Assembly: GCA_944474755.1 (NCBI GenBank)
Contig: OX104122.1
Span: forward strand, 8,209,223 to 8,273,222
Length of the DNA stretch: 64,000 bases
Source: Limnoperna fortunei
Lineage: Eukaryota; Mollusca; Bivalvia; Mytilida; Modiolidae
Reading direction: 5' to 3'
This document shows positions 3,845 through 47,868 of this stretch, one piece after another. Position 1 is the first letter of the stretch. Each line of letters starts with the position of its first letter. The notes under the pieces were generated by a model. That model had not been told where the DNA came from, searched no databases, and worked only from the letters and a program-made list of their open reading frames with translations. The translations under genes were made by a program, and so were the position numbers.

Positions 3845-4143
3845 GAGTGTTGTGTTCCTGCCATGTCATGATGAAGCCAGTGATTGTATTACACCAGTCG
3901 TGTTCTAGCCATGACATAGCCGGTAACTGTATCACACTGGTCGTGTTTTAGCCATGATATAGCCGGTAACTGTATCACACCTGTCGTGTTCATGTCATGA
4001 TATAGCCGGTATCTGTATCACACCAGTCGTGTTCATGTTATGATATAGCCGGTAACTGTATCACACCAGTCGTGTTCTTGTCATAATATAGCCGGTAATT
4101 GTATTACACCAGTCGTGTTCTCACCATGATATAACCGGTAACT
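3845..4143. repeat. 43-bp tandem repeat, 7 copies
   Basis: Units start with GTGTTCTAGCCATGA, continue ATAGCCGGTAACTGTATCACACC, and begin at 3852, 3900, 3943, 3986, 4029, 4072 and 4115. The last five are spaced exactly 43 bp. The array abuts the 39-bp array with no spacer. Confidence 0.9.
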
Positions 4144-4835
4144 AGCTATCACGGCAATGCGATGTACACCCAGAATGCACACATCTATCACCGCAATGAG
4201 ATGATTACCCGGAATGCACAGCTCTATCACCGCAATGAGATGATTACCCAGAATGCACAGCACTATCAATGCAATGAGATGTATACCCAGAATGAACAGC
4301 TCTCTCACGGCAATGAAATGTATGCCCAGAATGCACATCTCTATCACCGCAATGAGATGTATACCCATAATACACCGCTCTATCACCACAATGAGATGTA
4401 TACCCAGAATGCACAGCTCTCTCACGGCAATGAGATGTATACCCAGAATGCACAGCTCTCTCACGGCAAGGAGATGTATACCCAGAATGCACAGCTCTAT
4501 CACCGCAATGAGATGTATACCCAGAATGCACAGCTCTCTCACCGCAATGAGATAATTACCCAGAACAAACAGCTCTCTCACGGCAATGAGATGTATACTC
4601 AAAATGCACAACTCTCTCACCGAAATGAGATGATTACCCAGAATGAACAGCTCTCTCACGGCAATGAGATGTATACCCAGAATACACAGCTCTGTCACCG
4701 CAATGAGATGTATACCCAGAATGCACAACTCTCTCACCGCCATGAGATGATTACCCAGAATGAACAGCTCTCTCACGGCAATGAGATGTATACCCAGAAT
4801 ATACAGCTCTATCACCTCAATGAGAAGAAGTCTCT
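4144..4835. repeat. 39-bp tandem repeat, about 17 copies, open on both strands
   Basis: The unit GAGATGTATACCCAGAATGC plus ACAGCTCTCTCACGGCAAT is 39 bp. Because 39 is a multiple of 3, several frames stay open through the whole array: plus strand 4162-4845 gives a 13-residue repeat MYTQNAQLSHGNE, and minus strand 4815-4081 gives GIHLIAVRELCIL. No start context, signal peptide, splice site or flanking exon supports translation, so I treat this as satellite DNA. Confidence 0.85.
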
Positions 4836-5094
4836 GTACATATGATGTCCCTCGATATTATGGCCAATATAATGAAGCCGCTGTCAAATGTTAGTCATGG
4901 ATACTGAGGTATATTTTGCAAAAAGCAAAGGCAGAAATAAAACAATTGTTCCAATGATGAAAACACAAATTCTGCCTTGTTTGACAGTGTTCTACCTCAT
5001 TATATAATCAAAAGAACATTGCCGAAAGATAGTTTATAGGAATTTAACGCTGAAAATTAAATAATGAAAAAACCGCAAGAAACGTGTTTGATTT

Positions 5095-6538: not shown

Positions 6539-6848
6539 TATGACCGGGATGTTTGTTATCCTGATCGTTATTAGATGTCTCTCGGGGGAACTAGCTGTAT
6601 CTGTTCAAACATAGACTCGAAGTCGTTGTACATTTCCATATTTATTTACATCCGTATATTTCAACAGTTAACAATAACAATATATGCAACATGTCATCTA
6701 TAATCTATTTCCTACTATCTAACTTCTCTCGCCCCCTTCTACCATCAACTAACTTTTTTAAGTTACTTTTATGCCCTATGGAATTTAAAGAAAATGACCA
6801 ATGAGAATGCGTTTTACAATTTGGTGTAAACGTGTAATTTTTACTAAT
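6539..6848 (-). repeat. Gypsy-1 3' LTR, outer part (interrupted)
   Basis: Matches 18645-18954 with two differences by eye. In plus orientation it begins TATGACCGGGATG. The homology stops at the AT dinucleotide 6847-6848, where the DNA transposon begins, and resumes at 11403. Confidence 0.93.
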
Positions 6849-6861
6849 AGATAGTTTTCCG
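6849..6861 (+). repeat. ISL2EU left terminal inverted repeat
   Basis: AGATAGTTTTCCG, identical to the reverse complement of 11390-11402. Only 73 bp separate it from the transposase start codon, so the transposase promoter must overlap the element end or the host LTR. Confidence 0.92.
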
Positions 6862-6934
6862 TATCGATAGACAGGTGAACAAAATCAATAATTTAAAAGG
6901 CTAATCGGATTAAATACACAAAAGAACGTCAACA

Positions 6935-8664
6935 ATGGTAAATACCTGTGTTGTGTGGGGTTGTACCAACCGATCCGGCAAAGAAGAGCGTACGATCAAG
7001 TTTTTTGACATACCAAAAGTTATACATCACCAAGGGAAGCTGACGCAGGAAATTTCGACAGAGAGAAGGATGCTATGGCTTTCCCGTATCAACCGAGCTG
7101 ATTTCAACCCTGATCCAAGCAAACGACATTACAAAGTCTGCTCTGAACATTTTATTTCTGGTAAGAATTGCGATTTTTTTCTTCTTAATTAAAGTGCACG
7201 AAACATTCGTCCCCCCCTAAAAAAAATTACGTTTCTCATTTAATGTTTTTGGAAAACAGTAACATGTTATTAAATTCTAAATGAAAAGCTGTACAAAATG
7301 TCTGAATTTAATTAATCATATTAATGTATAGTACTGTACATATAGTTAAAGTTATATTCTTTTTTTTTCTAGGTGAGAAAGCAGACCTATATGACAAGAC
7401 AAATCCTGATTGGGCTCCATCTTTAAAAATGGGACCGGTCGAAAAGGAGATCTCGACTAACTTATCTGTAAGTGTAAAGAAACGTTATGAAAGATCTAAA
7501 CAGAGGGATGAAAGGAAGATACAACTGAAAACTGCAGAAGCACTTTTGGCTCTTCAGACATCAGTTTCCAATTTGGATTTTAATGAAAATTTTACCGTTG
7601 TAAATAAACATGCTGAAAAAGTTCAGTTCTTTTTGAAAGGGACACTTGAACCAGCAGGAAAAACAGCAGAGGACAGACTGTTAATTTTGGAAAAAATGCG
7701 AACAGAATTACAACGGTTGACAAGTGAAAATATGGAGTTGAAAGCAAAGTTAAAGCAGACTGTTTTAACACCAGAAAGTCTTGAAAAGGATGAGGACAAA
7801 GTCAAATATTATACTGGTATAACCCATCCTATTCTTATGTCGATTTTCAATTACCTTTCACCATCCATTCCAGAGAGTGCTAAAAGTTCATTGAGCAAGT
7901 TTGAGAAGCTTATGATTGTACTCATGAAAGTTCGACTAAACTTGGGTATGCAGGATCTTGCTTATCGCTTTGGAGTGTCTACAAGTACGGTTTCCAAGAC
8001 CTTTCAGGATATAATTCACATCATGTATATTAGAATGAAATCCCTCATTTTGTGGCCAGAACGTGAAGAACTGAGAATGTCAATGCCTATGGAATTCCGT
8101 AAATCATTTGGTGTAAAGGTGTCAATTATAATCGACTGTTTTGAAATATTCATAGAGAGACCCTCAAATTTGCTTGCACGTGCAGAAACGTGGTCCAACT
8201 ACAAACACCACAACACTGTCAAGTACTTGATTGGCATAACCCCACAGGGAGCTGTTTCATTTCTATCTCAAGGATGGGGTGGGCGAGTAACAGATAAACA
8301 TTTAACAGAAAATTGTGGACTCTTAGCAAAATTGCTGCCAGGTGATATTGTTCTGGCCGACAGGGGCTTTGACATAAGTGAAAGTGTTGGTTTGAGCTGT
8401 GCAGAAGTCAAGATTCCAGCATTCACTCGTGGTAAGAAGCAGTTGTCACCACTGGAGATTGAACAAACTAGGAAGATAGCTCATACTCGTATTCACGTGG
8501 AAAGAGTAATTGGCCTTGTTAGAAATAAATACACAATTCTTCAGAGCACTATACCCATTGACTATCTCCATTGTAATGAAGATGTTACACCAACTATTGA
8601 TAAAACAGTAACTGTTTGCTGTGTATTGTCAAATTTATGCCCTTCAGTTGTGCCATTTGATTAA
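6935..8664 (+). CDS. ISL2EU-like transposase, THAP + DDE_Tnp_4 (one intron)
   Basis: Two exons, 6935-7160 and 7373-8664, give a 505-residue protein. The intron (7161-7372) starts GTAAGA, ends after a T-rich tract in CTAG, and the join restores a glycine codon. The start ATG is in good context (ACAATGG). Residues 1 to about 90 form a THAP DNA-binding zinc finger (CVVWGC near residue 5, then WLSRI, CSEHF and the typical [14 protein letters not shown]). A coiled coil spans about 178-204 and a helix-turn-helix about 250-295 ([18 protein letters not shown]). The DDE catalytic domain follows, with likely catalytic residues D330 (IIDCFE), D405 (LADRGF) and E452 (HVERVIG). It should bind the element ends and cut and rejoin DNA in the nucleus. 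No stop or frameshift breaks it. The 3' UTR carries a sense hammerhead ribozyme 66 nt after the stop. P-element or Kolobok relatives also use THAP domains, but the AT duplication and YqaJ partner favour ISL2EU. Confidence 0.92.
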
Positions 8665-8730
8665 GGAGTGTGGTGACCGACTGTTGTTTGTATTCTTATA
8701 ACAAAAAATTATTTAAAAAAAAACCAAAAA

Positions 8731-8783
8731 CACTGTCGTCGTCTGCAAGTCGGCCTGATGAGCTCTAACAGAGCGAAACAGTG
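8731..8783 (+). ncRNA. Type III hammerhead ribozyme in the transposase 3' UTR
   Basis: All hammerhead core elements are present in order. Stem III 5' strand CACTG is at 8731-8735, followed by TC so that the cleavage triplet is GTC with cleavage after 8737. Stem I is 8738-8754 (GTCGTC pairing with GTCGGC around loop TGCAA, one U-U mismatch and one G-U pair). CTGATGA is at 8755-8761. Stem II GCTCT/AGAGC with loop AAC is at 8762-8774. GAAA is at 8775-8778, and stem III 3' strand CAGTG at 8779-8783. The last A of GAAA can pair with the U of GTC, and the G10.1-C11.1 pair next to the core is present. It lies 66 nt after the transposase stop and just before AATAAA (8790-8795). Cleavage would separate the coding region from the poly(A) tail. 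Activity is inferred, not shown. Confidence 0.9.
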
Positions 8784-8789
8784 CGAGAA

Positions 8790-8795
8790 AATAAA
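8790..8795 (+). promoter_or_regulatory. Poly(A) signal AATAAA, transposase gene
   Basis: AATAAA six bases downstream of the plus-strand hammerhead, so the ribozyme would lie inside the mature 3' UTR if this signal is used. Confidence 0.6.
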
Positions 8796-9035
8796 TCCAT
8801 GTGCATGGCATCTAGAAATATTAATAAAAACCTCATATAACTATGCTTTTTTTAGTTATTAGTGTTTGGACCTGTCTGGTTTTGTTGAGTAATTTGCTAG
8901 TAGATTGTTGCGTGTACAAAGGCTGGCATTTTATATGTATTCTTCTGAATATACATGTACATGTAAAATATAAACCTTAGTGCAATTTGAAAACCTAGGG
9001 TAAAAAGATACAACCAACTAATGTAAATCCAAATA

Positions 9036-9041
9036 ATTTAT
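9036..9041 (-). promoter_or_regulatory. Poly(A) signal AATAAA, YqaJ gene
   Basis: TTTATT on the plus strand, read as AATAAA on the minus strand, 28 nt downstream of the minus-strand hammerhead. The two genes converge here; the 286 bp between the ribozymes is AT-rich. Confidence 0.55.
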
Positions 9042-9069
9042 TGCATATGTATTCAATATTAAAATGGAA

Positions 9070-9122
9070 CACTGTTTCGCTCTGTCAGAGCTCATCAGGC
9101 CGTCTGGCAGACAGCGACAGTG
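9070..9122 (-). ncRNA. Type III hammerhead ribozyme in the YqaJ-gene 3' UTR
   Basis: Read on the minus strand from 9122: stem III CACTG (9122-9118), then TC giving the GTC cleavage triplet with cleavage after 9116. Stem I is 9115-9099 (GCTGTCT pairing with AGACGGC around loop GCC, seven pairs including one G-U). CTGATGA is 9098-9092. Stem II GCTCT/AGAGC with loop GAC is 9091-9079. GAAA is 9078-9075 and stem III CAGTG 9074-9070. It is an inverted copy of the 8731-8783 ribozyme with five differences in 53 nt, all in stem I or loops and none in the core, stem II pairs or stem III. It starts 77 nt after the YqaJ-gene stop codon and is sense to that gene. Confidence 0.92.
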
Positions 9123-9199
9123 GTTTTTTTTCCTGTTTTCTTTTTAAATTTTTTTAAAGATCTTTTTATATATTTTGTTTTCAGAATCCAAATAACCTT

Positions 9200-11288
9200 T
9201 CACTGCAATAATTTCTTCTTTGGTTTTGGTCTACAGTTCTTGCACAACCATTTTCCTTTCGGAATTCTCTTTATTCCTGCACATTTGAAATGCAGCCATT
9301 TGAACGGACAGTTTTCATTGTCACATCCAATCACATCATCATTTTCTTCATTGTACTCCTCTCTGCAAACGCAAATTATAACCTTGTCGCTAGCTGCTAC
9401 ATTCAAGATTTTCACTGCAGTGTGTTCATTTTGGGACTTCACTTCTAATGGTCTTGAATAGAATTTTCCAATCAGTTCTGGCAAGATGACTTTCTTGAAA
9501 AAATATTCCGACTTTTCAGTAATCTCTTTGCCCACAGTTGTATCAACAGCTATTCTTTGAATAAACTTGTCCTTGTTTGTCCAAACGATAAAGTCACAAT
9601 ATTCTTTACCACTGACCAGAAGCTGGCACTGAACCTGGTAGTAGTATTCATGACCTTTGTCCAACTCCAAACTGTCACCATTTTTAACAAGAAAATCCAC
9701 AGTGTCATCTATGATGCTGTCGCGTTTTATGAAAGGACATTTAATTTCAAAAATAATGTCTCCACAGCATTCACAACTGGCTACTCCATCTGGGCTTGCT
9801 CCAAGGTAAGGAAAGTTTGGGTTGATCTGAAACCCAACAGGTTTCACATTGAAGTTGTCATGCAAGTCTGACATCATTTGATTATATGCATGTCGAGCTA
9901 TACCTTCAAAATCACGTCCCCACTCTGTGGCTTTTGATGAAAATTTCTTATTGGCAGGATAACATATGTCCTTTATTAAGCTCCTCGAAGGATTGTCCAA
10001 AGAAGTTCGACAAACAGACTTAATGCGTGATGCTGTTAGCCTACCGCTACGAAAAGTATACCATTTCTTACAATTAGCTTGGCCTCTAGTATCGACCTCG
10101 CAATTGCTTGCTTCTTCAATCGTGACCTTTATGTCAGGAAAAAATTCATCGGCCCTTCTACGAATCTCTGTCAGTGAGACGGATTTGTACGTTTCATCAT
10201 ACAAGTCTGTCAATACTTGTGGATATTTAGTATCCAGAGCTTTCGGTTTGTACTTGTCAGCATATCCTGGAACTAATGACAGTATGACAGGTTTTTTACC
10301 AGTGGCATCCAGCGATGAGAAGAACTTGGCTAGATCAGAAACCTCTGGTTCTTTAACATCTGCCAGTTTTCTACGATTCTGAATCTTAACAGGTTCCGAC
10401 ATAGAAATAGCCTGATCTAGTTGCTTTTTCTTTGTTTTTGCAGAGGTAAAGTCTATTTCCTGCACTGTTTTGTAGTTAACCTGAAAAATTAAAACAAAAA
10501 ATATATATTGCGCTTGTTAAAATGGAATTCATCATGCTTATAATAATAATAGTCATGTTAACTGAAGAAATATAATATTTGTAACTTGTGAGCAAGGTAC
10601 TATACAATATTCTAAATGTACATAAATTCAACCATTTTGCATTATTTAAATTAATATATACATTGTGTACATGTGATAAAATATTAAGTAGTTAAGTGAA
10701 ACATACCTTTGATATTGATGATGGCAACAGCCAGTATGCCTTTTCTTGTGTAACTGTCTTGCTGTTCCTTATTTTCACTGCGGCCTCAACTGCAAAGAGG
10801 AGAGCTCCAACATGAGAACAGACTTCCCCGATTCCAGCCATACAGGTGCAATGTCCAGATATAACCGTCCCATCAGATTCTGCTATTATCCATGGCAAAA
10901 GTGGTGCATCATTCATTCTCTGTGAGTGCTTCACTTTGGCCAAAAATACACTCTTCCCATTCACAACGTGATGACCCAAGTCCTGGACAAATCCACTGAT
11001 AAAATAGTTATATGCCTGCAATGACTTGTAGGCTTTAAGTTCTGCTAGGGTGTACGCACTCTGATTGTATACCAAGTAGTTTACAATGTCAGGATAACAC
11101 ATGTCCGGCCAACTTTCGATGTCCGTCTTGTTCCATTCGGCTTTGTTTATTTCGTATGGGTCCTTTCCATCAATTGCTTTCAGTTTGTCTAAGTATCTGG
11201 CCTTGGTAATTGTGTCCAGAGAATCCCTATACAACACTTTTAACTGTACTGCCTCCGGCGATATAATTTTCTTGTCCTTTGATGACAT
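9200..11288 (-). CDS. SWIM zinc finger-YqaJ nuclease-PHD protein of the ISL2EU-like element (one intron)
   Basis: The coding region is complement(9200-10480, 10707-11288), 620 residues. The intron begins GTATGT at 10706, ends TTTTTCAG at 10481 and keeps phase 0. I start at the ATG 11288-11286; upstream in-frame codons include only a GTG before a stop. A SWIM zinc finger sits near residues 144-165 (GHCTCMAGIGEVCSH), the YqaJ exonuclease-like fold in the middle with GASPDG near 421 and EIKCP near 437, and a PHD-like finger at about 559-610 (CVCREEY, then CP, LHFKC and WLCKNC). YqaJ domains belong to the lambda-exonuclease/PD-(D/E)XK group. In ISL2EU elements this second protein probably helps transposition or end processing, but its exact role is not established. 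It converges on the transposase gene, and its 3' UTR holds its own hammerhead ribozyme. Confidence 0.92.
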
Positions 11289-11389
11289 TATCGATCGTTT
11301 ACGCTTCACAAATATTTATTCCACCTGCACGCTTTTCTTGCCCTACAACATGGCCGACGCCGCGATGCATCATGGGTATTTAGGATTAT

Positions 11390-11402
11390 CGGAAAACTAT
11401 CT
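11390..11402 (-). repeat. ISL2EU right terminal inverted repeat
   Basis: CGGAAAACTATCT, the exact inverse of the left end. The YqaJ-gene ATG lies about 100 bp inside it, mirroring the compact layout on the left. Confidence 0.92.
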
Positions 11403-11745
11403 ATTGGGAGTTAAACGGATTAACAGAATTATCTGCTTTTAACCGGTTGTCAATTAAAGTTCAGCCAGATTAACAAAAGGTGCTAATTGAACTATTTTTC
11501 TTCTATTTGATGTTGCATAACATGGCCTGAGGTAAAAGATAGGAATGTAAGAATTATCATTAAAACCGGTAGATTAAGTGTAATGTGTAAAATACATGTA
11601 TAAGCCTTTGCTAACTATCTGACTATACAATAAATAGTTACTTCAATTACGAATACTGAAATTGACATGATAAGTGAAATGAACAACGAGAATAATAATA
11701 AATAAACAATTATCAATTCTTGATGTGCTAAATGTGTGGGTCATA
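11403..11745 (-). repeat. Gypsy-1 3' LTR, inner part
   Basis: Continues the LTR after the nested transposon and matches 18953-19295 with three differences by eye. It ends GTGGGTCATA. A G-rich minus-strand stretch just inside (11746-11765, AGGGGCCGACGGGG) is in the right place for the polypurine tract, though it is not a pure purine run. Confidence 0.92.
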
Positions 11746-13511
11746 TTACCCCGTCGGCCCCTAGCTGATTCTCCGGATCAGCCAAAGAAAATAAAAAATA
11801 TTTCATAGAAAAATTAGAACTAAAAGTTATTTACAATATATACATGCGCGCTTCTTATATCTTGAAATGCAGATATAAATATCATGGATTTGGATTGATT
11901 TAGTGTACATACATAATTCTAGTAACAAATATATAAAATAAATGTAAATTCGAATGTAGACAAAGATTACATGACTATAGATATGTAAAATATAAAATAC
12001 ATGTATCAGTAATACAATGCAAATAATGTAAATAATGTTTGTTAAACTTTTTTTTTTAAATAACACTCTTAGTAGAAGTTCAATTTCTTGTAGATATTTT
12101 ATGTATTTCCGAAATTGATGAAGTGTACGTGCATCAATTTAGTAGAAAATAATTGTTTGTAACGTGAATATGTCATTGGTTGTGATTTCCTCATTAGTGA
12201 CCCTTTAGGGATCATTTGTCCGCGGGTTTAAATAATATTCCATATATAATATAAAGGCACAATAACATATACTATTCTATGAGCGTGATGAATCCTAATT
12301 CTCAATGTCGATTATGATTTTTTTTTTAATAAATAAATTTTGCGAGAATACTGACTTTTGATTGGCTGGAAAATATTTTCTATCAGAGGATGGAAAACAA
12401 ATTTGATCGTCATGGAGACACGCGCCATTTGACGTCATATATTACTCCACGGGAAACTAACAGTTTTTGTGTTGATCTCTTTAAAAAAAAATGTCCAGTT
12501 ACAAAAATAAAATTGTTGAGTGTATTCTATTGTTTGAATTTATTTATAAGTATTAACTACATAAAATATTTTCTCCATCGAAGGATAACAAAATTTCCGT
12601 TTTGCACATTTAATATAATCCGCTACGCGGATTATACAATGTGCAAAACGGAAATTTTGTTATCCTTCGATGGAGAAAATATTTTTTGTAGTTAATCCTT
12701 AAATAAAAAAAATCATTTGTAGATCAACCTTTGTTTGAAAAGGCGTATATGTAAAACTATTCAAACTACAAAATTATACGGTACATGGTCATAAAAAATC
12801 TTAACTGGTCTTAGTAATAGGTGTAAAAACTCTCATTGCCAAGAAACAAAAGAACTCAATAAAAATGTCTGAAAAAGGGAATGCATGTACATAGGGTCTT
12901 AAAACTAAAAAATATGCTTAATGTAATATGAACTGGAAAACAAAAGGATTAACAATGGTTTAGTGAAATTAACTTGTATATTCTTACTTAATTTCGTAAT
13001 TTTTACAATTTTCTTTAATATAGGTTCGTCACTCCTAACTTAAAGAAGCCTGTCGATTAAAGTTTGGGGGACGAATCCAAACCTTATTCCCGAGGTAGCA
13101 AATAATGTTTTCCGAAAAGTTATTAGCGGGTACTGACTGTACTGAAATACCATTGTTAAAACTTTTGTTGTTGTTGTTGTTGTTGTGTAAAATGGAAATA
13201 ATGTGAAAAATATGTATGGCTTAAACTACAAGAAAAAGTTCATGCTTGTCCAAAGTTACGACCTTCCAATTGTGATAAACACTTGGTCCAAATTTACGAC
13301 ATTGTGCAATGAAACAATTTAGTGTGTTTTAAAAGAAAAAAAATTGTAGGCGTATTTGAAGTATGTGCAGACGTGTTTCTTAGCGAAATATGTTTGTTTG
13401 CTATTTAATAGGAGTATATATGATGTATGTAATATATTAAAACAATTTTGACTGTGTATTTTAATAAGGTATAGACAGACAAACTTTATAAAATGTTCTG
13501 TAATCCCTAAA
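11746..13511 (-). other. Gypsy-1 3' non-coding region
   Basis: The 1.77 kb between the integrase stop and the 3' LTR contains no credible reading frame on the minus strand and no envelope-like gene. It holds a large palindrome (12539-12706), a GTT-repeat at about 13163-13186 and AT-rich filler. Whether the palindrome belongs to the element or is a later foldback insertion cannot be told from one copy. Confidence 0.6.
12539..12706. repeat. Near-perfect palindrome (foldback or MITE-like)
   Basis: Left arm 12539-12623 and right arm 12627-12706 are inverted copies around the 3-bp centre TAC. Matching landmarks are TTCTCCATCGAAGGATAACA on the left, inverted near 12658-12677, and CCGTTTTGCACAT, inverted near 12639-12651. 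Arms differ by only a few bases. A cruciform or hairpin of roughly 80 bp arms is possible. Confidence 0.88.
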
Positions 13512-15117
13512 TTATGATTTGCGTTTTTGCGTATTTTTATTTCGTTGTTGTGTTATGCGTGTGTGGTATTCTTGTTGTAGTTCTGGTGGTATGTTTTCTT
13601 CTGGTTCCCAAGAATTATCTTTATGACCATAGCCTAACCATTTTATTAAGTATTTTCTTTTGCCGTTGTCGACTTTTGTTTTTAATATTTTTTCTACAAT
13701 GAATAATGTGTCGTCGTCTTCATCGATTGTGGGATTTGTTATATTAGGTGTATTGTGTAAAACAGTTTCGTGATCTGAATTTTGATTTTGTGTGTGCGTT
13801 TCATTATCAGAACTTGCACTTTGAGATTTCTCCTCATCGTCGTAGTCCGATTCGTCGTCTGTTCCGTCGTCAACGTTGTTAGTTGGTCTGTCTTGCGGAT
13901 CATGGAACGGTTTAAGTCTGTTTGCATTTTGCGGAACCTTTACTTGAGCATTATCGGAACATCTTCGAAGTGTGTACGTTAGGTTGCCACGATCTTCCGT
14001 AATGTAGTATGGTCCATCCCATTTGTAACAAAGTTTAGGCGAAAGTCCAATGGCTACTTTCTTTTTGTCTAGCCAAACTTTATCACCAACTTTGAATTCT
14101 GGGTCCTTTGCATTCTTATCGTGTTGAAATTTGTATTTCCGCTGTGCTTGCGTTATGTTTTGACGTGCCATGTCTCGGGCATAATTAAGTTGTTTGTGCA
14201 GACTGTCAATGTACTGTTTCGCATCATTTCCAACATTTGTGGGTTCAGTTAAAACAGTGTCTATTGGCGTTCTACACTCCCTGCCGAATAATATGTAGTA
14301 TGGACTGTACTGTGTTGATTCTGTGCAAACAGACGTGTTCATTGAGAAGGCTATACTTGGTAAGTATTCGTGCCAGTCTGATTGGTCATCGTGGATGAAC
14401 ATTCGTAGTTTTTCTATAATAGTTTTATTGTTTCGTTCGCACGTGCTGTTGGTTTGAGGATGGTAGCTACTGGTTGTCATCTTTTTAATTTCAAAAATTT
14501 TGCACACTTCTTTTATCACTTTAGAAAGGAAGTTTTGTCCACGGTCTGTAAGAATCGAGTCTGGAGCTGAAAATCTGCAGATAAATTCGTTGTAGAATAT
14601 TCTTGCAATTTCTTTTGCGCATGTTGTTTTAAGCGGGAAAATTTGAACAAATTTCGAAAAGGAACAAACAATGAGTAACACATGGGTATGTCCTTCTGCA
14701 CTCTTTTTAAGTGGTCCAATAATATCCATATGGAGTCGACTGAAGACGTCCAGCACAGGTAGTGGTTTAAGCGGTGTTGACTTTTTATGAGCTTGCGGTT
14801 TCGCTTTTTGACATTGTATACATGATCGAACATATTGTGATAAATCACTGTAAAGACCTGGCCAATAATATTTGAGACGAATTGTATGGTATGTTCGTTC
14901 TATCCCATGATGACCTCCTAGCAGTTGATCGTGATATGACTTTAAAATTTCGTCTCGTTGTGTACGTGGTACGGCTAGTCGTTTCACTATTCTGTCCGAC
15001 CGATGTCCTTTGCCTTTAGGATAGAACAAGTGGAAAAGTACGTCGTCTTCAATTATGTAATCTTGGGCCTCAATTGTAATTTTCCTTGCATGTTTCGTAT
15101 TTCCTGGCAACTCCCGC
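13512..15117 (-). CDS. pol: Gypsy-1 integrase with C-terminal chromodomain
   Basis: About 532 residues open. From the N-terminus there is an HHCC zinc finger (HHGIERTYHTI, then CIQCQ). The catalytic core has D in LHMDIIGPL, D in LTDRGQNFLS and E in the SYHPQT-N-STCERN motif, followed by a GPY/F-like region (YKWDGPYYI). A chromodomain lies near residues 473-515 (FIVEKILKTK, then YLIKWLGY and SWEPEENIP). Integrase inserts the cDNA; a chromodomain can direct insertion to marked chromatin, which places the element with or near chromoviruses. The frame differs from the RNase H part upstream, with the break at about 15118-15110, so it is not translatable as one polyprotein as sequenced. Confidence 0.9.
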
Positions 15118-15738
15118 TTAATTTAAGTACTCTTTTATGTCTTTGAAGTCTGTGTCTTCCGTCTGGTCTTTAATTAATTTTTCCTTTGGTGTTGTCGTTA
15201 TTTCACAGATTGATGCAGAAGGGTTAAAGTCGATAAAGTGCGTCTCTGTTTGACTTGAAGTGGACATTGTCTTTGCGAATTGGACAGTTGCGATTGTTTT
15301 TTCTGACTCATACTGCCTTCGGCTTAATGCATCAGCATTTCCATAACTTGCTCCTTTCTTGTAGATTATGTCGAAGTCGTAACTTTGTAAAAACATAGTC
15401 CATCTGGCTATTTTTCCGGTATTCTGGGCATCTTTGATCTTTTGGTAGTATTGAAGCGCTTCGTGGTCCGTGTAAATTTTGAACTTCCTGTTTGCAAGGT
15501 ACACCTGGTAGTGTTTTACTCCTTCAACTAAAGCCAACATTTCAAGGTCTCTAATGCCGTAGTTCTTCTCTGCTAATCGCAATGCCCTTCCGCCATATAC
15601 AACTACATATTCTCTGCCTTTCGCGTCTTTTTGTCCAAGAATATAGCCTATTGCCACATGTGATGCATCTGTATATAGGATAAATTCTTTGGTAAAGTCT
15701 GGAAATGCCAAGACAGGGGCTGATATTAACAGTCGTTT
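15118..15738 (-). CDS. pol: Gypsy-1 RNase H domain
   Basis: Same frame as the reverse transcriptase but separated from it by an in-frame TGA at 15741-15739. Visible motifs are FILYTDASH (first catalytic D), then LEMLALVEGVKHY (E), IYTDHEAL (D) and GNADALSRR at the end. The frame closes with TAA at 15120-15118, where the integrase frame takes over. RNase H removes the RNA strand during reverse transcription. Confidence 0.85.
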   Translation of the reverse strand, partial: KRLLISAPVLAFPDFTKEFILYTDASHVAIGYILGQKDAKGREYVVVYGGRALRLAEKNYGIRDLEMLALVEGVKHYQVYLANRKFKIYTDHEALQYYQKIKDAQNTGKIARWTMFLQSYDFDIIYKKGASYGNADALSRRQYESEKTIATVQFAKTMSTSSQTETHFIDFNPSASICEITTTPKEKLIKDQTEDTDFKDIKEYLN

Positions 15739-16600
15739 TCATTCTTGAAAATCCAATTCACAGTCTTTGTCCCAAATAAACTTTGCTCCTTTGGACAGTA
15801 GTTTATGTAAAGGAGAGGCAATCTTGGAAAAACCTTTTACAAATCTTTTGTAGAAATTCGCTAATCCCAAAAATGCTCGGACATCTGTTTTATTTTGTGG
15901 TGTTGGAAATGTACGTACTGCCTCTGTTTTTGATGTATCGACCGATATACCATCTTTTGAAAGCAAGTGACCCAAAAATTTGACTTCTTTTGCTGCAAAT
16001 CGACACTTTGATGGTTTAAGGCGTAAATTGGCTTCGCGGAGTTTTTGAAATAATGCATCAAGGTGTTGTAGGTGTTCATCAAAGCTGCGGGAGAAGATCA
16101 ATATATCGTCCATATATACCAGTGCACTTTTCCAATTAAGTCCTCGCAGAACTTCCGACAATGCTAGTTGAAAGGAATGGGGACTGTTGCTTAGCCCAAA
16201 CGGTAGTTTGTTGAATTCAAACACACCTTCGTGGCAGACAAATGCAGATTTGTGTTTCGTCTCTGGATGAAGCTTCTGCTGCCAATATCCGTGGAACATA
16301 TCAGCCACTGAATAATATGTCGCGTTGGCTTCTCCAAGTGTGTCGAATATATCTTCCAGTCGAGGTAAAGGGAAAACTTTCTTTTCTGTAAGTGCGTTCA
16401 ACTTCCGGTAGTCGACGGCAAACCTGTATTCGTTGTTTTTCTTCTGTACCAATACTACTGGGCTTTGCCATTCGCTCTGTGAGGGTTCAATAATTCCGTG
16501 TTTTAGCATTTCGTTTATCTGTTTGCTTATTTCTGTTTCCGGCAGGCGTTGTTCGAAAAAATTTCTGCTGGGCAGATCCAGTTTCAATGCGATGAGGATG
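15739..16600 (-). CDS. pol: Gypsy-1 reverse transcriptase domain
   Basis: Motifs in order: EMLKHGIIEPSQSEW, FAVDYRKLNALTEKK, VADMFHGYWQQKL (catalytic D), FGLSNSPHSFQ, the active site LVYMDDILIFS near 16109-16130, and FLGLANFYKRF near the thumb/connection. The protease frame upstream runs into this region in a different frame (change at about 16545-16560), and an in-frame TGA closes it at 15739. The sequence is otherwise well conserved. Confidence 0.88.
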
Positions 16601-17839
16601 GAGATCTGTACAGCCAAGTTCTGACAAATCGGTAGCAAAAACGTCCCGATTCATTCCTAATAATGTCATTAGTGATAGTTTTTGTGTTTCGGTTAAATCT
16701 GATTGTGTTAAATCAAAATTAAGTCTTTTTGCTATATCGATGTATTGATCTGTTTTGTTGTCAATTTGTGTATTTGAGAATGAATTGATATTTGCTGTTG
16801 TAACATTACTATCGTTGATTTCGTGTGTAACTGATTTTTCGTGGATTTCGCAAAATTTGCCTATTTTTGTGTGTCGTGATAATCTTACTTTTGTGTTTGT
16901 TGGGTTTAAAATTTGTACACAAGATTTTTTGTTAAGTATTTTTACTAAACAAGTAGCACCAATGACACTTTGTTTCCCAGGTAATGAAGGATTGGGTTCT
17001 ATTATGCCTATTTGAGACTTAATAGACTTATCTAATGTTTGAATGGGAACTAGCACTTCTGATCTAGGGGGGATATTCTCATCTTTAACCAAGGACATAA
17101 AACAAATACTACTATCATTAGTATTATTATTTACCAGGGGTACTTCTATCATTCCTGATTTTATTGTAAGTAATTTCTCTTCAAAATTTAATAAAGCTTT
17201 ATTATCTGTGAGAAAATCGAGACCGAGAATACAAGTATACTGAAAGTTTTGAATTACATAAAATGATTGTTGTAATGATAATTGGCCGATTTGAATTGTT
17301 ACATTAATTTTTCCTTTAACTTTTAACATAGTGCCACTTACACCTTTTATTAGTAAATATGCCTTTTCGAGCGGAATTTTATTTTGTAAATTCTGATGGT
17401 AGAATTGAGCCGAAATCGCACTTATTTGTGCGCCAGAATCAACCATGGCCATCGCCGAACTATTTGCAACCCGAATTTTTACATAATTTCCTGAATTTAG
17501 ATTGTTAATACTTGAAGCCGAAATTAATTTTGTTGGTTGCGCCGAAACAGATTTTTGTTTTGATCTACACATTTTTGAGGAATGGCCAATAGTTTTACAT
17601 TTTCTACATTTAGCCCTAAGAAATCGACATTGAGAAGGATAATGACCACACTCACCACATCTGAAACAAGGGTGTCGCTGCCTTCGTTCTCGTCTTTGGG
17701 GTCGTTTTATTTCTTGCACATAACCATGAGCTGGATCAGGAAATCGTGAAGACTGGATATGCTCTACAGACGCGATGTTTCTTGTTCTTTTTATGTTTTC
17801 TAACTCAGAAAGTTTGTCTTGCATTTTGTCCAAAATCGG
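16487..17839 (-). CDS. gag-pol: Gypsy-1 nucleocapsid and protease region
   Basis: Same frame as gag, following an in-frame TAA. It begins with a coiled-coil-like segment (MQDKLSELENIK). Two CCHC zinc knuckles follow at about 17680-17565 (CFRCGECGHYPSQC and CRKCKTIGHSSKMC), which bind genomic RNA. An aspartic protease carries MVDSGAQISAIS near 17450. The C-terminal 40 residues or so overlap the reverse transcriptase frame and stop being family-like at about 16555, so a frameshift lies there. Separation of capsid from zinc knuckles by a stop is unusual and suggests damage or an error. Confidence 0.82.
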   Translation of the reverse strand, partial: PILDKMQDKLSELENIKRTRNIASVEHIQSSRFPDPAHGYVQEIKRPQRRERRQRHPCFRCGECGHYPSQCRFLRAKCRKCKTIGHSSKMCRSKQKSVSAQPTKLISASSINNLNSGNYVKIRVANSSAMAMVDSGAQISAISAQFYHQNLQNKIPLEKAYLLIKGVSGTMLKVKGKINVTIQIGQLSLQQSFYVIQNFQYTCILGLDFLTDNKALLNFEEKLLTIKSGMIEVPLVNNNTNDSSICFMSLVKDENIPPRSEVLVPIQTLDKSIKSQIGIIEPNPSLPGKQSVIGATCLVKILNKKSCVQILNPTNTKVRLSRHTKIGKFCEIHEKSVTHEINDSNVTTANINSFSNTQIDNKTDQYIDIAKRLNFDLTQSDLTETQKLSLMTLLGMNRDVFATDLSELGCTDLHPHRIETGSAQQKFFRTTPAGNRNKQTDKRNAKTRNY

Positions 17840-18391
17840 TTACATTTTCGCGTGTATGATTTCTTCCACCTTTCTCAGTTCTTCTTTATTTCTCTGGTCT
17901 AAAAACGAATGGATCACTTCCGCCGATCGAAGACTTTCCTCTGTTTCCGCTAGGTTTTCTGGTTCGTTTCCAAATAAATGTACGAGTTCCGGTTTACATC
18001 GTATTCTTAATTTAGCCATTTTCATTTCGTCGTTGATATGTAGGTTCTCGGAAATTGCGTGAAGACGATTGATATATTCGGACGCTGTTTCTGTTTCGTT
18101 TTGACGCAAGTCGTCGAAATCACTCCGTTTTTGAAAGTTTTGTCCATAGCAATGTTTGTATTTTATAAGAAATTCGTTTTTCAAAAGTTGTTTTTGCTTT
18201 GTAATTTCTGTTTCAAGCTGGAAAAACCAAATCTGAGGATGTTCTTCTAAGAATAGGGGAAATGCGGTGCAAAATGTTTGATCATCCCATTCACACAAAG
18301 TAGCAAAGTGTTCAAATGTTTTTAACCATCTGTCAGCGTTTTCTGTAAAATCTCCTTTGAATTTTTGTGGTGCAAATTTTGTTAAATCCAT
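17840..18391 (-). CDS. gag: Gypsy-1 gag capsid (truncated by stop)
   Basis: 183 residues from the ATG at 18391-18389 (MDLTKFAPQKFKGD) to TAA at 17842-17840. It contains the Retrotrans_gag capsid fold signature (WLKTFEHFATLCEW, then LRQNETETASEYINRLH). The same frame continues open after the stop into the zinc knuckles, so the stop splits one gag protein. The leader between 5' LTR and ATG is about 250 nt. Confidence 0.82.
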   Translation of the reverse strand: MDLTKFAPQKFKGDFTENADRWLKTFEHFATLCEWDDQTFCTAFPLFLEEHPQIWFFQLETEITKQKQLLKNEFLIKYKHCYGQNFQKRSDFDDLRQNETETASEYINRLHAISENLHINDEMKMAKLRIRCKPELVHLFGNEPENLAETEESLRSAEVIHSFLDQRNKEELRKVEEIIHAKM

Positions 18392-18624
18392 CTTGATTTT
18401 TGTTTTACGTTGAACTTGGTTGTACAAATTTCACCATATATGTTACCTATTGCATTGTTAATAATTGCACGTTATTGTTGCCAGCTGAGACATTCTTCTC
18501 TTCTTGCGCCTTCTCATATTAGCACTTGTCGCAGAATTAGGCGAGACGGAAAACTTTAGCTTATCTAGTAAATGTTAGTTGTCCATTTCTCCACTTGACA
18601 GACGAGAGGTACGCTACTAGGAAA

Positions 18625-23079: not shown

Positions 23080-23560
23080 GCGTCCTGTTTACAGCAAAGT
23101 TATTGTTGTCTCCAAACGCGCATGCGCCCATCAATATGACGAAGAAGGAATCTGCTTTCGTCGGTCCAGATTACTCGTCGCCAGCTTCGAATATTCCAAT
23201 GGCGGTGATATCTCGTCCTCTCTAAACGTGCTTGGTGATGTCTCTGTGTCAACAGTGGACGTTTCAAAAGACGACGAGTTCTCAACCTTGTATTGCTTGG
23301 GCGCCTGTTAACTGTTCGAACGGCGACTCGGGTTGCAATATTCCAATCGTCACGAAGATATCTTGCAGTGGCAAACGGTTGGCGTTTGACTACACGAACG
23401 AGTGCTCTATCCTCCCTTTCAGATGTTTTTGGTGGTCGACCTGACCTAGGACGTTCCTGGATAGTTCCATCATCTCGTTGACTTTTCAGTAGCCGGGATA
23501 CAATGCTAAAGTAAATGCCAAAGCGTTGTGCTATCTGATGCAAGCTCTGCCACTACTTAG
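23080..23560 (-). pseudogene. Tc1-like transposase fragment
   Basis: The frame 23543-23100 encodes about 147 residues. It has a Tc1-type helix-turn-helix (LHQIAQRFGIYFSIVSRLLK), the linker RPRSGRPPKTSEREDRALVR, a second DNA-binding half, and the start of the catalytic domain at VIWTDESRF with the first catalytic D. It stops at RMRVWRQQ, so the other two catalytic residues are missing. No inverted repeats were found around it. Tc1 transposases cut and paste at TA; this copy is truncated and dead. Confidence 0.8.
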
Positions 23561-42324: not shown

Positions 42325-44880
42325 TCATTTAAAACTAGAGGTAGACTTGATGATGTCTAAAATAGCCTGTGCTGTTTCTGTCTGCATACCCTGGAAAAGT
42401 TGTGTGTTAGATAAAGATGTAAGACATTGAACCTTCTGGTACCATTCACCACTAGGTGTACCTGAAAACTTAGACATTTCAAACTTTCCAGAAGTCATCC
42501 AAGTTGGCGGTTTCCTGTTTCGTACAGATCGACGTAATGCTACAGGTGGCGACAGTGATGCATCGTCAGAAAGGTTCTCCTGTATATCACTGTTCCTATC
42601 CCTTGTCGAAGGCCTTCTATTAACGTCTCTCGTATCTGTGTCTGTCTCGGTAGCTTCCACTATGTCGGCATCCTGAGATCGGGCGTCCCCTGCAGACTCA
42701 GATACTTCATCATCTTCTATCCCGGTTGCCGGTATATCAAGACGTGATGTTCCTGCAGTGATGGTTGAGTCACTAATTTCATCACCTGATACTGCCAACA
42801 ATACAACCTCATCCTCTGATGACTCTGAATAATATTCTGCATCTGTCGGTCTGTTTACTGTTCTTGGTGCTGGTTTTGGTGGTTCATTCTTAACATGTTG
42901 TCGTGGTTTGGGTACTGGTCTCTCTGGCTCAATCACATGGCCAACTGGTAATAACAAGTTTCGGTGTAAATTCCTCTTACGACCTTCTCCATTTTCTTTC
43001 CGTACTGTGAAGACTGGGATCTCTGGATTGGGTTGATCGAGTACAACATACGGATCATCCTCCCATCTGTCTGAAAGTTTATGTTTACCATCGAACGCCA
43101 CAATCTTCACAAGTACCAAGTCTCCTTTCCTGATGGTAGCTCCTTTAATCTTTGTATCATAATGATGTTTTTGATGTTGCTGCGCTTTCTTGGAGGCTTC
43201 AGCTGCTAACTTGTGGGTGTAATCTAACCGCTCTGTAAGATCCTTGATGTAGTTTGACCCAGTGATTTCTTTTTTCAGTCCTAAGGTTACATCAACAGGT
43301 AGTCTTGGATTCCTTCCAAACACGAGGAAGTAAGGTGAAAAACCGGTCGACTCATGCTTCGTACAGTTGTACGCGTGGACAAGCGGTGCCACATAAGCTT
43401 TCCAGTTTTTCTTCTTGTCTACCTCCAATGTTCCTAACATGTCTAACAGAGTTCGGTTGAACCTCTCACACATACCGTTTCCTTGTGGGTGGTAGCTGGT
43501 GGTACGAGACTTTTTAATTCCTGTCAAGTTACATAATTCCTTTATTACTTTCGATTCAAAATTTGCCCCCTGGTCCGAATGAAGTCTTTCTGGTATGCCA
43601 TAATGTACGATAAAGTTGTTAAATATCGCTTCGGCTGTTGTTCTTGCCGTCTGGTTCCTAGTGGGTATGGCCTGAGCATATCTTGTAAAGTGGTCCACAA
43701 GTACGAGAATGTGTTGTTGTCCTCCTTTTGATGGTTCGAGCGTAAGAAAATCCATACTTACCAGTTGTAGAGGTGATGTTGTCTCTATACTTACCAGTGG
43801 TGCTCTGTGGTTCGGTAAGGTTTTCCTCCTAAGACATCTTCCGCATTGTGAAATCCATTCCTCAACATCCTTTGCCATACTTGGCCAATAAAATCTGTCT
43901 CGTAACAAGGATAGAGTACGATCTTTGCCGGGATGTCCTAGGTCGTTGTGTAAAGCTGCCAGTACAGTTGTCACAAGTTCTTGCGGTAAAATCAGTTGTT
44001 GCTTAGTTTCATCTTCTGTTAATACTTCCCGATACAAAATTCCTTCAATCATCTTCAAATGCTGATATTGTCTCTTTAAAATTCTATCCCCTTTTCCTGG
44101 TTTTAAATTATTCCGAACGGTTTCTCTCCATCTCTTAATCATTTCATCCTTCTCTTGCGCTTTGATCCAATCTACTGCATTTAATACTGATGTTCCTGTC
44201 GGTATATCACAATCGTCATCATTGATAACATCAGTTGAAATTCCTAAGCACTCTGCATATGGTGAAGTATCTATGACAGCATTACAGATAGCTCGAATTG
44301 AATCTATACTTATGTCAGTTACCTCTTCAGAGACTGGCAATCGGCTAAGTCCGTCTGCGTCGGCGTTGCTTTTCCCAGGACGATACTTAATGCTGAAGTT
44401 GTAACTGGCTAAGTCTGCTAGCCATCGATGACCTGTGGCATCAAGCTTTGCTGTCGTTAATACATACGTTAATGGATTGTTGTCCGTCCATACCGTGAAC
44501 TGTTGGCCGTACAAGTAGTCCTTGAATTTATCGGTGATGGCCCACTTCAAGGCTAGGAATTCAAGTTTATGTGGTGCGTAATTCTTTTCGGCCTTGGTTA
44601 GTCCCCTACTTGCATAGCTGATCACTCGCTTCTCGTTGCTCTGTTCTTGGTAAAGAACTGCACCTAATCCAGTTCCAGAAGCGTCAGTATGGAGCTCAAA
44701 TGGAAGAGTAGGATCCGCATATCCAAGTATTGGAGCTGATGTTAATAGCTTCTTCAAGGTGGTGAAAGCTTTATCTTGTTCTTCTCCCCAGTTCCATTCT
44801 TTCTGGTTCTTTGGTTTTCCCTTGCATTTCTTACCTGTTGGAATTGGCATCAAGTCTGTCAAGGGTCGACTAATCTGGCT
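42325..44880 (-). CDS. pol: Gypsy-2 pol, RNase H and integrase part
   Basis: About 845 residues open from 44862. The N-terminal part finishes the RT connection (TDLMPIPTGKK). RNase H follows, with FELHTDASGTGLGAVL (D), KLEFLALKWAI (E) and VWTDNNPLTY (D). Integrase comes next: zinc finger HPGKDRTLSLL then CGRCLRR; core residues D in VSMDFLTLE, D in HSDQGANFES and E in HPQGNGMCERFNRT; and a GPY/F-like end (DRWEDDPYVVLDQPN). A long acidic, proline-rich tail of about 200 residues follows, with RSVRNRKPPTW near its end. The frame upstream (reverse transcriptase) differs, so one indel lies at about 44865-44880. Confidence 0.9.
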   Translation of the reverse strand, partial: SQISRPLTDLMPIPTGKKCKGKPKNQKEWNWGEEQDKAFTTLKKLLTSAPILGYADPTLPFELHTDASGTGLGAVLYQEQSNEKRVISYASRGLTKAEKNYAPHKLEFLALKWAITDKFKDYLYGQQFTVWTDNNPLTYVLTTAKLDATGHRWLADLASYNFSIKYRPGKSNADADGLSRLPVSEEVTDISIDSIRAICNAVIDTSPYAECLGISTDVINDDDCDIPTGTSVLNAVDWIKAQEKDEMIKRWRETVRNNLKPGKGDRILKRQYQHLKMIEGILYREVLTEDETKQQLILPQELVTTVLAALHNDLGHPGKDRTLSLLRDRFYWPSMAKDVEEWISQCGRCLRRKTLPNHRAPLVSIETTSPLQLVSMDFLTLEPSKGGQQHILVLVDHFTRYAQAIPTRNQTARTTAEAIFNNFIVHYGIPERLHSDQGANFESKVIKELCNLTGIKKSRTTSYHPQGNGMCERFNRTLLDMLGTLEVDKKKNWKAYVAPLVHAYNCTKHESTGFSPYFLVFGRNPRLPVDVTLGLKKEITGSNYIKDLTERLDYTHKLAAEASKKAQQHQKHHYDTKIKGATIRKGDLVLVKIVAFDGKHKLSDRWEDDPYVVLDQPNPEIPVFTVRKENGEGRKRNLHRNLLLPVGHVIEPERPVPKPRQHVKNEPPKPAPRTVNRPTDAEYYSESSEDEVVLLAVSGDEISDSTITAGTSRLDIPATGIEDDEVSESAGDARSQDADIVEATETDTDTRDVNRRPSTRDRNSDIQENLSDDASLSPPVALRRSVRNRKPPTWMTSGKFEMSKFSGTPSGEWYQKVQCLTSLSNTQLFQGMQTETAQAILDIIKSTSSFK

Positions 44881-46657: not shown

Positions 46658-47868
46658 TATTGCTTACTATGATCCATTCTCACTCTGCATCCTATCTTTA
46701 GATGGCCAAACTGTCCACATCTCCAACACTTAACTTCTTTATCACTATCTTGTCTGTCTCTGTATTTCCCTCTACCTCTACCTTTAGATTGCTGTCTGTA
46801 TTGTGTATCTTGTTGTTGCCATGGTTGTTGTTGTTGTTGCCAATTAGAAGATGGTTGTTGTTGCCAACGTGATGGTGGCTGTTGTTGTTGCTGCCAACTA
46901 GATGGTGCCTGTTGTTGTTGCCAATTCGATTGCGACTGCTTTTGCCATGGTGGATGCTCAAACTTCTTGTCATAGTTGTCTAGTCTGCTATTAATCTGGT
47001 TGATCATACCCTTAATTTCCTGGATACTGTCCTCTTCTGGCTGACCTGTGATGGCCTTGCTGGTATGTGGTTTGGAGTGTGTCTTTTCCCTACTTCTGTG
47101 ATCACTTTCTATCTGCCTAAGGGCAACTCTTAATCCATCAAAATCTGTAATAGCATCGTACTTGTGTCCTGAAATGTCTTTCAAAGATGGTCTTAGTCCT
47201 GTCCACAACATTGCATGCAGCATTGCATCAACATCTGTACGACGTACTAATCCTCTATCAACTGCCTTGCCTATGATGCCCTCAAGTCTACAACTCCATG
47301 CTGTCACACTCTCATCTGGTTGTTGACGTGATCCATAAAACTCTGCTAATAATTCTTCCTTCTTATCAACACTTCCATAGATGCTATCAAGTTTCTGTAA
47401 GATATCATGTATTGTGGCGTCTAATTCCAGTCTCATTGCTACTAGTCCTGCTTCTCCTCTCAAGGACCTTCTAACTGCATTGAGTATAGCATCCTCATCA
47501 TAATTCTGCTTCAAAAGGCACTGTACCTCATGTCTCCATAACTCGTATGTTGTATCACCTGCTTTCTGTTCTGTCCCAGAAAACCATGTTATCTTCGGTG
47601 GATGGTTCATCAACATCTTCGTCACATTTTCCTTCTGTTTTAGCTTAGGTGGATTGCTTAAAGCAGCATGAGTTTCTGTTTGTTCTTGTTTAATTGCTCC
47701 TTTGGACATCAGATAATCCATCATCCATCTTGTTAGGTCTTCAGGTGTGTCAGCTTTAGGTCTAACACCCATCTTTTCAAACATCTCCAATGTTTGCATC
47801 ATCTCTGGTGATAATCTTGGACTTGATGGTTGTTGCGTGATAGGTACCTTATCTCCAGAAGTAGCCAT
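46618..47868 (-). CDS. gag: Gypsy-2 gag
   Basis: 416 residues from ATG (MATSGDKVPITQQ). A capsid-like helical region spans about residues 95-260 (ITWFSGTEQ, YELWRHEVQCLLKQ, SVTAWSCRLEGIIGKA). A glutamine/tryptophan-rich linker covers about 300-355 (many QQQQ and SSWQQQ units, encoded by CAA/CAG-rich sequence), and one CCHC zinc knuckle is near residue 378 (CWRCGQFGHLKIGC). It forms the particle and binds genomic RNA. The last codons hold the frameshift site to pol. Intact. Confidence 0.92.
   Translation of the reverse strand: MATSGDKVPITQQPSSPRLSPEMMQTLEMFEKMGVRPKADTPEDLTRWMMDYLMSKGAIKQEQTETHAALSNPPKLKQKENVTKMLMNHPPKITWFSGTEQKAGDTTYELWRHEVQCLLKQNYDEDAILNAVRRSLRGEAGLVAMRLELDATIHDILQKLDSIYGSVDKKEELLAEFYGSRQQPDESVTAWSCRLEGIIGKAVDRGLVRRTDVDAMLHAMLWTGLRPSLKDISGHKYDAITDFDGLRVALRQIESDHRSREKTHSKPHTSKAITGQPEEDSIQEIKGMINQINSRLDNYDKKFEHPPWQKQSQSNWQQQQAPSSWQQQQQPPSRWQQQPSSNWQQQQQPWQQQDTQYRQQSKGRGRGKYRDRQDSDKEVKCWRCGQFGHLKIGCRVRMDHSKQYLNGKKSMAREQS

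Follow-up and report, generated by a model that had tools for sequence, protein, structure and literature searches.

The window analysed here, a stretch of 64,000 nucleotides from Limnoperna fortunei (contig OX104122.1, forward-strand positions 8,209,223 to 8,273,222), contains an ISL2EU-type DNA transposon of 4554 bp at 6849–11402. The element was delimited by its terminal inverted repeats (TIRs), an AT target-site duplication (6847–6848 on the left, 11403–11404 on the right) and two genes. The 13-bp TIRs, AGATAGTTTTCCG and CGGAAAACTATCT, lie inside a perfect 16-bp inverted repeat, and the ends of the element were also found elsewhere in the genome, the left end in L009, the right end in L010 and both in L011. 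In the main text of PMC4482050, ISL2EU elements are characterized by encoding a YqaJ protein beside a transposase with THAP, HTH and DDE parts and by duplicating AT within the target A|AT|T. The element in the window has the same target, and Pfam domains together with gene models recover the ISL2EU gene set, in which a THAP, HTH and DDE transposase is accompanied by a separate YqaJ gene. This agrees with the preliminary description of the locus, in which the host was taken to be a THAP/DDE and YqaJ transposon. The TIR starts with AG versus the GG that "usually" begins ISL2EU repeats (main text of PMC4482050), a wording that makes GG a usual trait rather than a requirement.

The transposase gene is on the forward strand. 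Its first exon (6935–7160) encodes the THAP domain (PF05485, 1.9e-10) and is followed by a GT donor at 7161. The second exon (7373–8664), preceded by a TAG acceptor, is an open frame with HTH_Tnp_4 (PF13613, 4e-18) and DDE_Tnp_4 (PF13359, 1.6e-54) that ends in the stop codon TAA at 8662–8664, and the two exons encode 505 amino acids. The YqaJ gene is on the reverse strand, with exon 1 at 10707–11288 and exon 2 at 9200–10480 encoding a 620-amino-acid protein. Exon 2 follows a CAG acceptor, contains the YqaJ nuclease (PF09588, 1.4e-22; PF01771, 7.5e-10) and a weak PHD finger (5e-4, under its Pfam cut-off) and ends in a stop codon at 9202–9200. Exon 1 had no Pfam matches; its CxC..CxH arrangement is one that we take to be SWIM-like. 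The two genes are convergent, both frames are open and the introns of both are predicted from the sequence to be of the GT-AG kind.

Each gene is followed by a type III hammerhead motif in its own sense, one on the transposase side at 8731–8783 (+) and one on the YqaJ side at 9070–9122 (−), both of which were recovered by pattern, descriptor and Rfam. The motifs start 66 nt past the stop codon on the transposase side and 77 nt past it on the YqaJ side. Beyond them lie the poly(A) signals: AATAAA starts 7 nt past the motif on the transposase side (8790–8795, +; a second one is at 8823) and 28 nt past it on the YqaJ side (9037–9042, −). Hammerheads share a core (CUGANGA ... GAA), a U-A pair beside the cut, an H17 nucleotide and three stems, as also represented in the Rfam model. 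Both window motifs consist of a stem III strand CACTGT, H17 as C (GTC), a 17-nt stem-loop I, CTGATGA, stem-loop II, GAA and A-CAGTG, and thus show the core, the U-A pair, H17 and three stems, with stem III open as defines type III. Cut sites are predicted, as expected from the motif, at 8737/8738 (+) and 9116/9115 (−). The motifs are identical to each other at 48 of 53 positions and form the core of a 69-nt inverted repeat, the arms of which (8715–8783, + and 9070–9138, −) are 84% complementary and 286 nt apart. The preliminary description had placed two complete type III hammerheads at these coordinates, which proved right to the base, and its account of their sense, their distances of 66–77 nt from the stop codons and the AATAAA beyond them was verified.

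The pattern, which was derived from the motifs themselves, matched twice in the window and never in 100 shuffles, and our own descriptor matched twice in the window versus never in 60 first-order random windows. The preliminary description had proposed an Rfam search and a folding program as checks. In the former, the Hammerhead_3 model (RF00008) matched over its full length with 36.7 bits at 9069–9123 (−) and 36.5 bits at 8730–8784 (+), corresponding to E-values of 4e-6 in 901 bases and of 3e-4 in the entire 64 kb window against 4227 families; no further hammerhead match was found in the window at an E-value of 0.01 with these families. The bit scores are below the curated gathering cut-off of 48.5 bits, at which Rfam lists nothing, so that the case depends on E-values, structure and relatives. 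All Rfam hammerhead scores among the relatives considered below (subfamilies A and B, families D and E) likewise fall under 48.5 bits: 37.4 and 37.8 in copy L011 of A, 30.8–34.6 in four of the five B copies, 38.0–42.3 in D (L069, L073) and 37.8 in E (L080, L081). At an E-value of 0.1 the A copies L010 and L012 and the decayed copy L050 were not listed.

The folding check was equivocal, since free energy alone does not set the isolated motifs apart (z-scores of −0.86 and −1.88, with 39 and 9 of 200 shuffles equally good) and the minimum-energy structure is not a full hammerhead. For the window motifs, the hammerhead fold exceeds the minimum energy by 1.5 and 0.3 kcal/mol (its own energy being −14.1 on the transposase side), and for B by 4.7. 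Within the 3' UTR the predicted probability of stem III is at most 0.09 on the transposase side and 0.35–0.60 on the YqaJ side. In an RNA that contains both arms, arm-arm pairing is predicted at 0.98 or more at 11 of 14 sampled positions and stem III at 0.0, which suggests that in read-through RNA the pairing of the arms would act as a lock on the ribozyme. Upstream of the transposase-side motif, a candidate anti-ribozyme helix was dismissed because 118 of 500 shuffles gave an equally long one.

Elsewhere in the window there are retroelements with gag/pol-like frames at 13512–18427 and 42325–47868 (−), which we presume to be of the Ty3 type, and a 147-amino-acid frame at 23100–23543 (−) that appears to us to resemble a fragment of a Tc1-type transposase. 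A search with the pol of one of these retroelements reached at most 66% identity along its full length. Open frames made of short repeated units at 4081–4845 and 59328–60869 are tandem repeats and probably not genes. At 12580–12668, either strand matches the mir-3003 model, with 41.2 and 39.9 bits below the cut-off of 70, probably owing to a hairpin that arose by chance or to a small element with inverted repeats.

Relatives were sought in the 1.335 Gb genome by pattern, DNA and protein. Subfamily A comprises the window and eight further copies (L009–L016). Its transposase-side motif passes the descriptor in all nine copies, with the closing pair of stem II broken in six and another stem II pair broken in L009. 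The YqaJ-side motif passes in three (window, L009, L011), is damaged in one (L010) and deleted in five. The same pair, for which the preliminary description had suggested a search in other copies, is therefore present with both motifs passing in three of nine A copies, the YqaJ-side member being lost or damaged in the other six. No full-length stop-free transposase match was found in A copies other than the window. The window element is the one copy in which both genes were shown to be intact, and a broken core beside intact genes, which the preliminary description named as a refutation, was not seen. Five A copies at C13:48166144-48316226, about 34–46 kb apart and with a common loss of the YqaJ-side hammerhead, are probably duplicates of one larger block. 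Subfamily B (five copies, L017–L021) is 45–63% identical to A in the longest transposase piece of each copy and about 40% identical in YqaJ. In all five B copies the YqaJ-side motif is whole and the transposase-side motif is truncated alike. The whole motif lies 81 nt past the stop codon in L002/L017, at an offset equal within 2 nt in the other four, and an AWTAAA hexamer follows about 40 nt beyond it in four of the five. In a further group, the pair C (L049, L050), the genes are decayed and both motifs are broken. Rfam Hammerhead_1 scores 31.4 bits (cut-off 34) at L050:4406-4449 (−), upstream of the transposase pieces of that decayed element.

Hammerhead-like motifs are also located further upstream in the genes of other elements. 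Searching the genome with a pattern based on stem III as spelled in A and B yielded 61 matches versus 8 for its reversed control; sorted by eye, 12 belonged to A, 5 to B and 25 to a new kind, D, the other 19 being unrelated. A second pattern, made from the stem II of B, D and E and the core, gave 45 matches versus none in the control. Eight D loci were read (L069–L076, one extended as L077), which cover 9 of the 25 D matches. According to the gene models of L069 and L077, a SWIM/YqaJ-like gene carries the motif in sense within one of its introns, and an HTH_Tnp_4/DDE_Tnp_4 transposase lies on the opposite strand between the SWIM-like and the YqaJ exons, which we infer to belong to one gene. 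In three of the eight loci read, those termed D1, two type III motifs occur as direct repeats about 192 nt apart in one intron, and nine such D1 pairs were counted with the second pattern (e.g. C1:42975176 and C1:42975367 of genome G000, in L069). This layout could release a small RNA. Family E was read at five of seven places (L080–L084). In L080 the motif is sense to a transposase gene that is convergent with a YqaJ gene, and it lies between a THAP-like stretch (tblastn, E-value 8e-5) and the DDE stretch, so that it is presumably intronic. The E motif differs in stem III, has the cut site GUA and is identical in all five copies, the 1.2-kb stretches of which are 98.8–99.75% alike to L080. 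The claim of one hammerhead in the 3' UTR of each gene consequently holds for the window, as one layout among several, because B keeps only the YqaJ-side motif and D and E carry theirs upstream, in an intron in D and presumably so in E.

The genome as a whole yields 8273 matches to one core pattern versus 5 to its reverse. Among the 100 of these matches that were listed (from C1:957937-17853905) are many tandem arrays with periods near 380 and 510 bp, which look like type I retrozymes, comparable to the retrozyme load of other animals.

Conservation was compared at several depths. In the nine A copies, 6 of 53 and 12 of 51 sites vary in the two motifs (the latter figure is inflated by misaligned ends of a deletion), 23 of 284 between the motifs and 12 of 69 upstream. 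As variation in the motifs is no lower than in the remaining UTR, these recent copies, the genes of which are nearly all broken, display no constraint. At greater distance the motif stands out. When the A UTR was aligned with two of the five B UTRs, the hammerhead was the only clearly alignable stretch (E-value 0.001, next 0.05). Between A and C the motifs are identical at 80 of 93 positions and the remaining UTR at 276 of 372 (p 0.019). Between D1 and D2 the motif is identical at 59 of 63 positions versus 196 of 246 in the best-kept exon (p 0.009), and the introns share no other alignable stretch at an E-value of 1e-5.

Base pairing was counted in ten sequences of A, B, D and E, with the structure drawn on those same sequences. 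Of the pair cells, 95.9% are standard, and 7 of 22 pairs are changed on both sides, a number reached in 1 of 500 shuffles; one of the seven stems from A rows in pseudoknot columns. The covariation score was 0.223 versus 0.102 in shuffled alignments (0 of 500 as high) and at most 0.056 when the structure was slid. In another count, on 13 rows of A, B and C, shuffling was beaten on three of five measures only, among them the covariation score (0.271 versus 0.147, 0 of 500) and the number of paired cells; double-changed pairs (4, equalled in 177 of 500 shuffles) and further pair types (12, in 368 of 500) showed no excess. The hammerhead stems thus appear to be kept by compensating changes across A, B, D and E; given the small number and the relatedness of the rows, this lends support but falls short of proof. 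A possible pseudoknot between loops I and II, GCC(A)/(U)GGC, is present in all eight rows of B, D and E, and no loop-loop contact was evident in the two A rows. Pseudoknots of this kind accelerate cleavage in other hammerheads, according to the portion of PMC3088659 available.

In the stretches read of other transposons the motif was not found. Ten other transposases (L052–L061) were picked from at least 104 matches, with 98 of 762 candidates scored, and their 3' flanks gave no match at an E-value of 1 with Rfam or with R1, an RNA model built from the A, B and C motifs whose high scores on A, B and C are for that reason circular. With filters off (L052, L053, L054, L059, L061, L051 and L018) the best score outside L018 was 9.7 bits. 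Seven of these ten are ISL2EU-like elements with both genes, and in all seven an intergenic motif was absent, although the gaps between gene matches, which span about 20 to about 520 nt, are short in some of them. In the L062 family, the one of these whose introns were read, the descriptor by itself likewise found none across the intron of the transposase gene and a portion of the YqaJ gene. IMG/VR scans for the transposase returned no relatives. The single relative in prokaryote genomes, contig L051 of a Candidatus Poribacteria MAG, has the same convergent genes and no hammerhead; as it is a eukaryote-type ISL2EU transposon, the contig is probably host (sponge) DNA in the bin.

Related ISL2EU elements are named from Mytilus coruscus, Ylistrum balloti, Ostrea edulis, Priapulus caudatus, Argopecten irradians and Sinanodonta woodiana; among the named relatives of the window's sequences, those of a Ty3-type pol included, there are also fish. 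In a 38-row transposase tree, the neighbours of A are elements of Priapulus, Mytilus, Ostrea and Ylistrum, and those of B are Sinanodonta and L062/L064, both of the L-numbered ones being without the motif in the stretches read. In a 17-row tree that includes D and E, both on long branches, the motif-bearing rows need three changes, at least two of them by supported branches. The B and D motifs are nearly alike and their transposases far apart, whereas between A and B the transposases are more similar and the motifs less so. Motif likeness hence does not track transposase likeness, which points to exchange of motifs between elements or to repeated gain; judged from these sequence comparisons, either would suit the descent data best, and a single gain followed by many losses fits them less well.

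Based on position and structure, we consider it somewhat probable that the twin motifs cut their own mRNAs ahead of the poly(A) signal, whereby the tail would be lost and the output of transposase and YqaJ nuclease lowered. In each message the cut would fall past the stop codon but short of the poly(A) signal, and the cut mRNA, being without a poly(A) tail, would yield less of the two proteins. Tail removal had been put forward in the preliminary description and is probably the correct reading of the predicted cut sites. Cleavage would race with polyadenylation, the AATAAA being only 7 and 28 nt beyond the motifs, such that a transcript that is processed fast would survive and a slow one would be destroyed, keeping the dose of the element low. 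By the same logic the D and E motifs would race with splicing.

The strongest alternative is that of passenger motifs. A ribozyme module would move among the transposons of this genome, or have been copied in from repeats with hammerheads, and would persist because it does little harm, playing no part in expression. We regard this as unlikely. It draws on the abundance of hammerhead-like cores in the genome, on the near match of the B and D motifs in elements with distant transposases, on the many copies with lost or damaged motifs and on the lack of constraint among recent A copies. A passenger would, however, not be expected to lie in sense and outside the coding sequence wherever a gene was modelled, nor to keep its core and covarying stems. 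The motif also outlasts the surrounding intron between D1 and D2, being more alike there than the best-kept exon (p 0.009), and it is more alike than the remaining UTR between A and C (p 0.019).

A function as an insulator of 3' ends was judged improbable. Here the ribozymes would cut read-through RNA of the tail-to-tail genes and so avert antisense overlap and silencing by double-stranded RNA, as could be imagined from the convergence of the genes and from the position of each motif ahead of the gene end on the other strand. The poly(A) signals at 8790 and 8823 (+) and at 9042 (−) would, however, already separate the 3' ends, and the motifs of D and E are located upstream in their genes. Moreover, in read-through RNA the two arms are predicted to pair with each other at the cost of the ribozyme fold, meaning that the motif would fail exactly where an insulator needs it. 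Retrozyme-like use, in which hammerheads excise a small RNA that becomes a circle, is very improbable for the window. The D1 intron with its two direct motifs about 192 nt apart would allow it, but the window motifs are inverted, not the direct repeats by which retrozymes are recognized, and a single transcript never contains two active ones. Lastly, we give hardly any credence to the 69-nt inverted repeat acting as DNA, as a cruciform or protein-binding palindrome with an incidental likeness to a hammerhead, since against the 84% complementarity of arms 286 nt apart and the greater likeness of arms within one element than between subfamilies stand B, D and E, which keep the core and compensated stems with no whole inverted partner found there, and the detection of single motifs by Rfam.

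Self-cleavage that lowers transposase and nuclease output remains the reading that we favor, and a broader one may tentatively be built on it. Hammerheads could be an exchangeable control part of YqaJ-bearing DNA transposons, gained repeatedly, in which self-cleavage racing with polyadenylation (3' UTR) or with splicing (intron) serves as dose control without a protein. The twin arms of the window element might add a switch, in that read-through RNA or antisense RNA from the facing gene would lock the ribozyme and spare the message. If true, a jumping gene restrains itself by RNA instead of protein. Type III motifs with covarying stems in the 3' UTRs and introns of several cut-and-paste transposon families place the ribozyme in a new context, with transposase mRNA as the prospective target of self-cleavage. 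They offer a testable case of self-limitation by a DNA transposon and of the movement of ribozymes between elements.

What is new here is that a known ribozyme occurs in the transcripts encoded by several families of DNA transposons. Animal genomes mostly show type I hammerheads, and genomic hammerheads are mostly ascribed to retroelements and RNA circles in the available portions of PMC7229834 and PMC7761336. The preliminary description knew of no hammerheads described as paired 3' UTR elements of a cut-and-paste transposon, and the literature found, from a search that had most subscription papers outside it, is in the portions available likewise without a hammerhead in a gene of such a transposon. 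The closest parallel in position is Clec2 of mammals, in which a type III hammerhead occurs in the 3' UTR of an mRNA and a role in poly(A) choice has been suggested (PMC6155905, in part). That ribozyme is, in contrast, part of a host gene and discontinuous, with a helix I of 150–1500 nt, versus 53 nt for the entire compact motif that both genes of the transposon carry here. The intronic hammerheads of amniotes (RECK, CTCL), as presented in the accessible text of PMC6155905, resemble family D in being ribozymes within introns, although they are of type I and in introns of host genes. Retrozymes, with type III motifs in plants and type I motifs in animals, share the placement of hammerheads inside mobile elements (parts of PMC7229834 and PMC7761336); they are, however, non-autonomous retroelements with direct hammerhead repeats and circular RNA, whereas the element here is a cut-and-paste transposon with inverted motifs. 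Penelope-like elements and Terminons are similar in that hammerheads are found in autonomous mobile elements (PMC6155905, PMC7229834 and PMC7761336, each in part) and differ in being retroelements with minimal type I motifs. Finally, the ISL2EU elements of the PHIS superfamily have the same two genes and the same AT duplication in A|AT|T as the window element, the differences being that its TIR starts with AG and that the main text of PMC4482050 makes no mention of a ribozyme.
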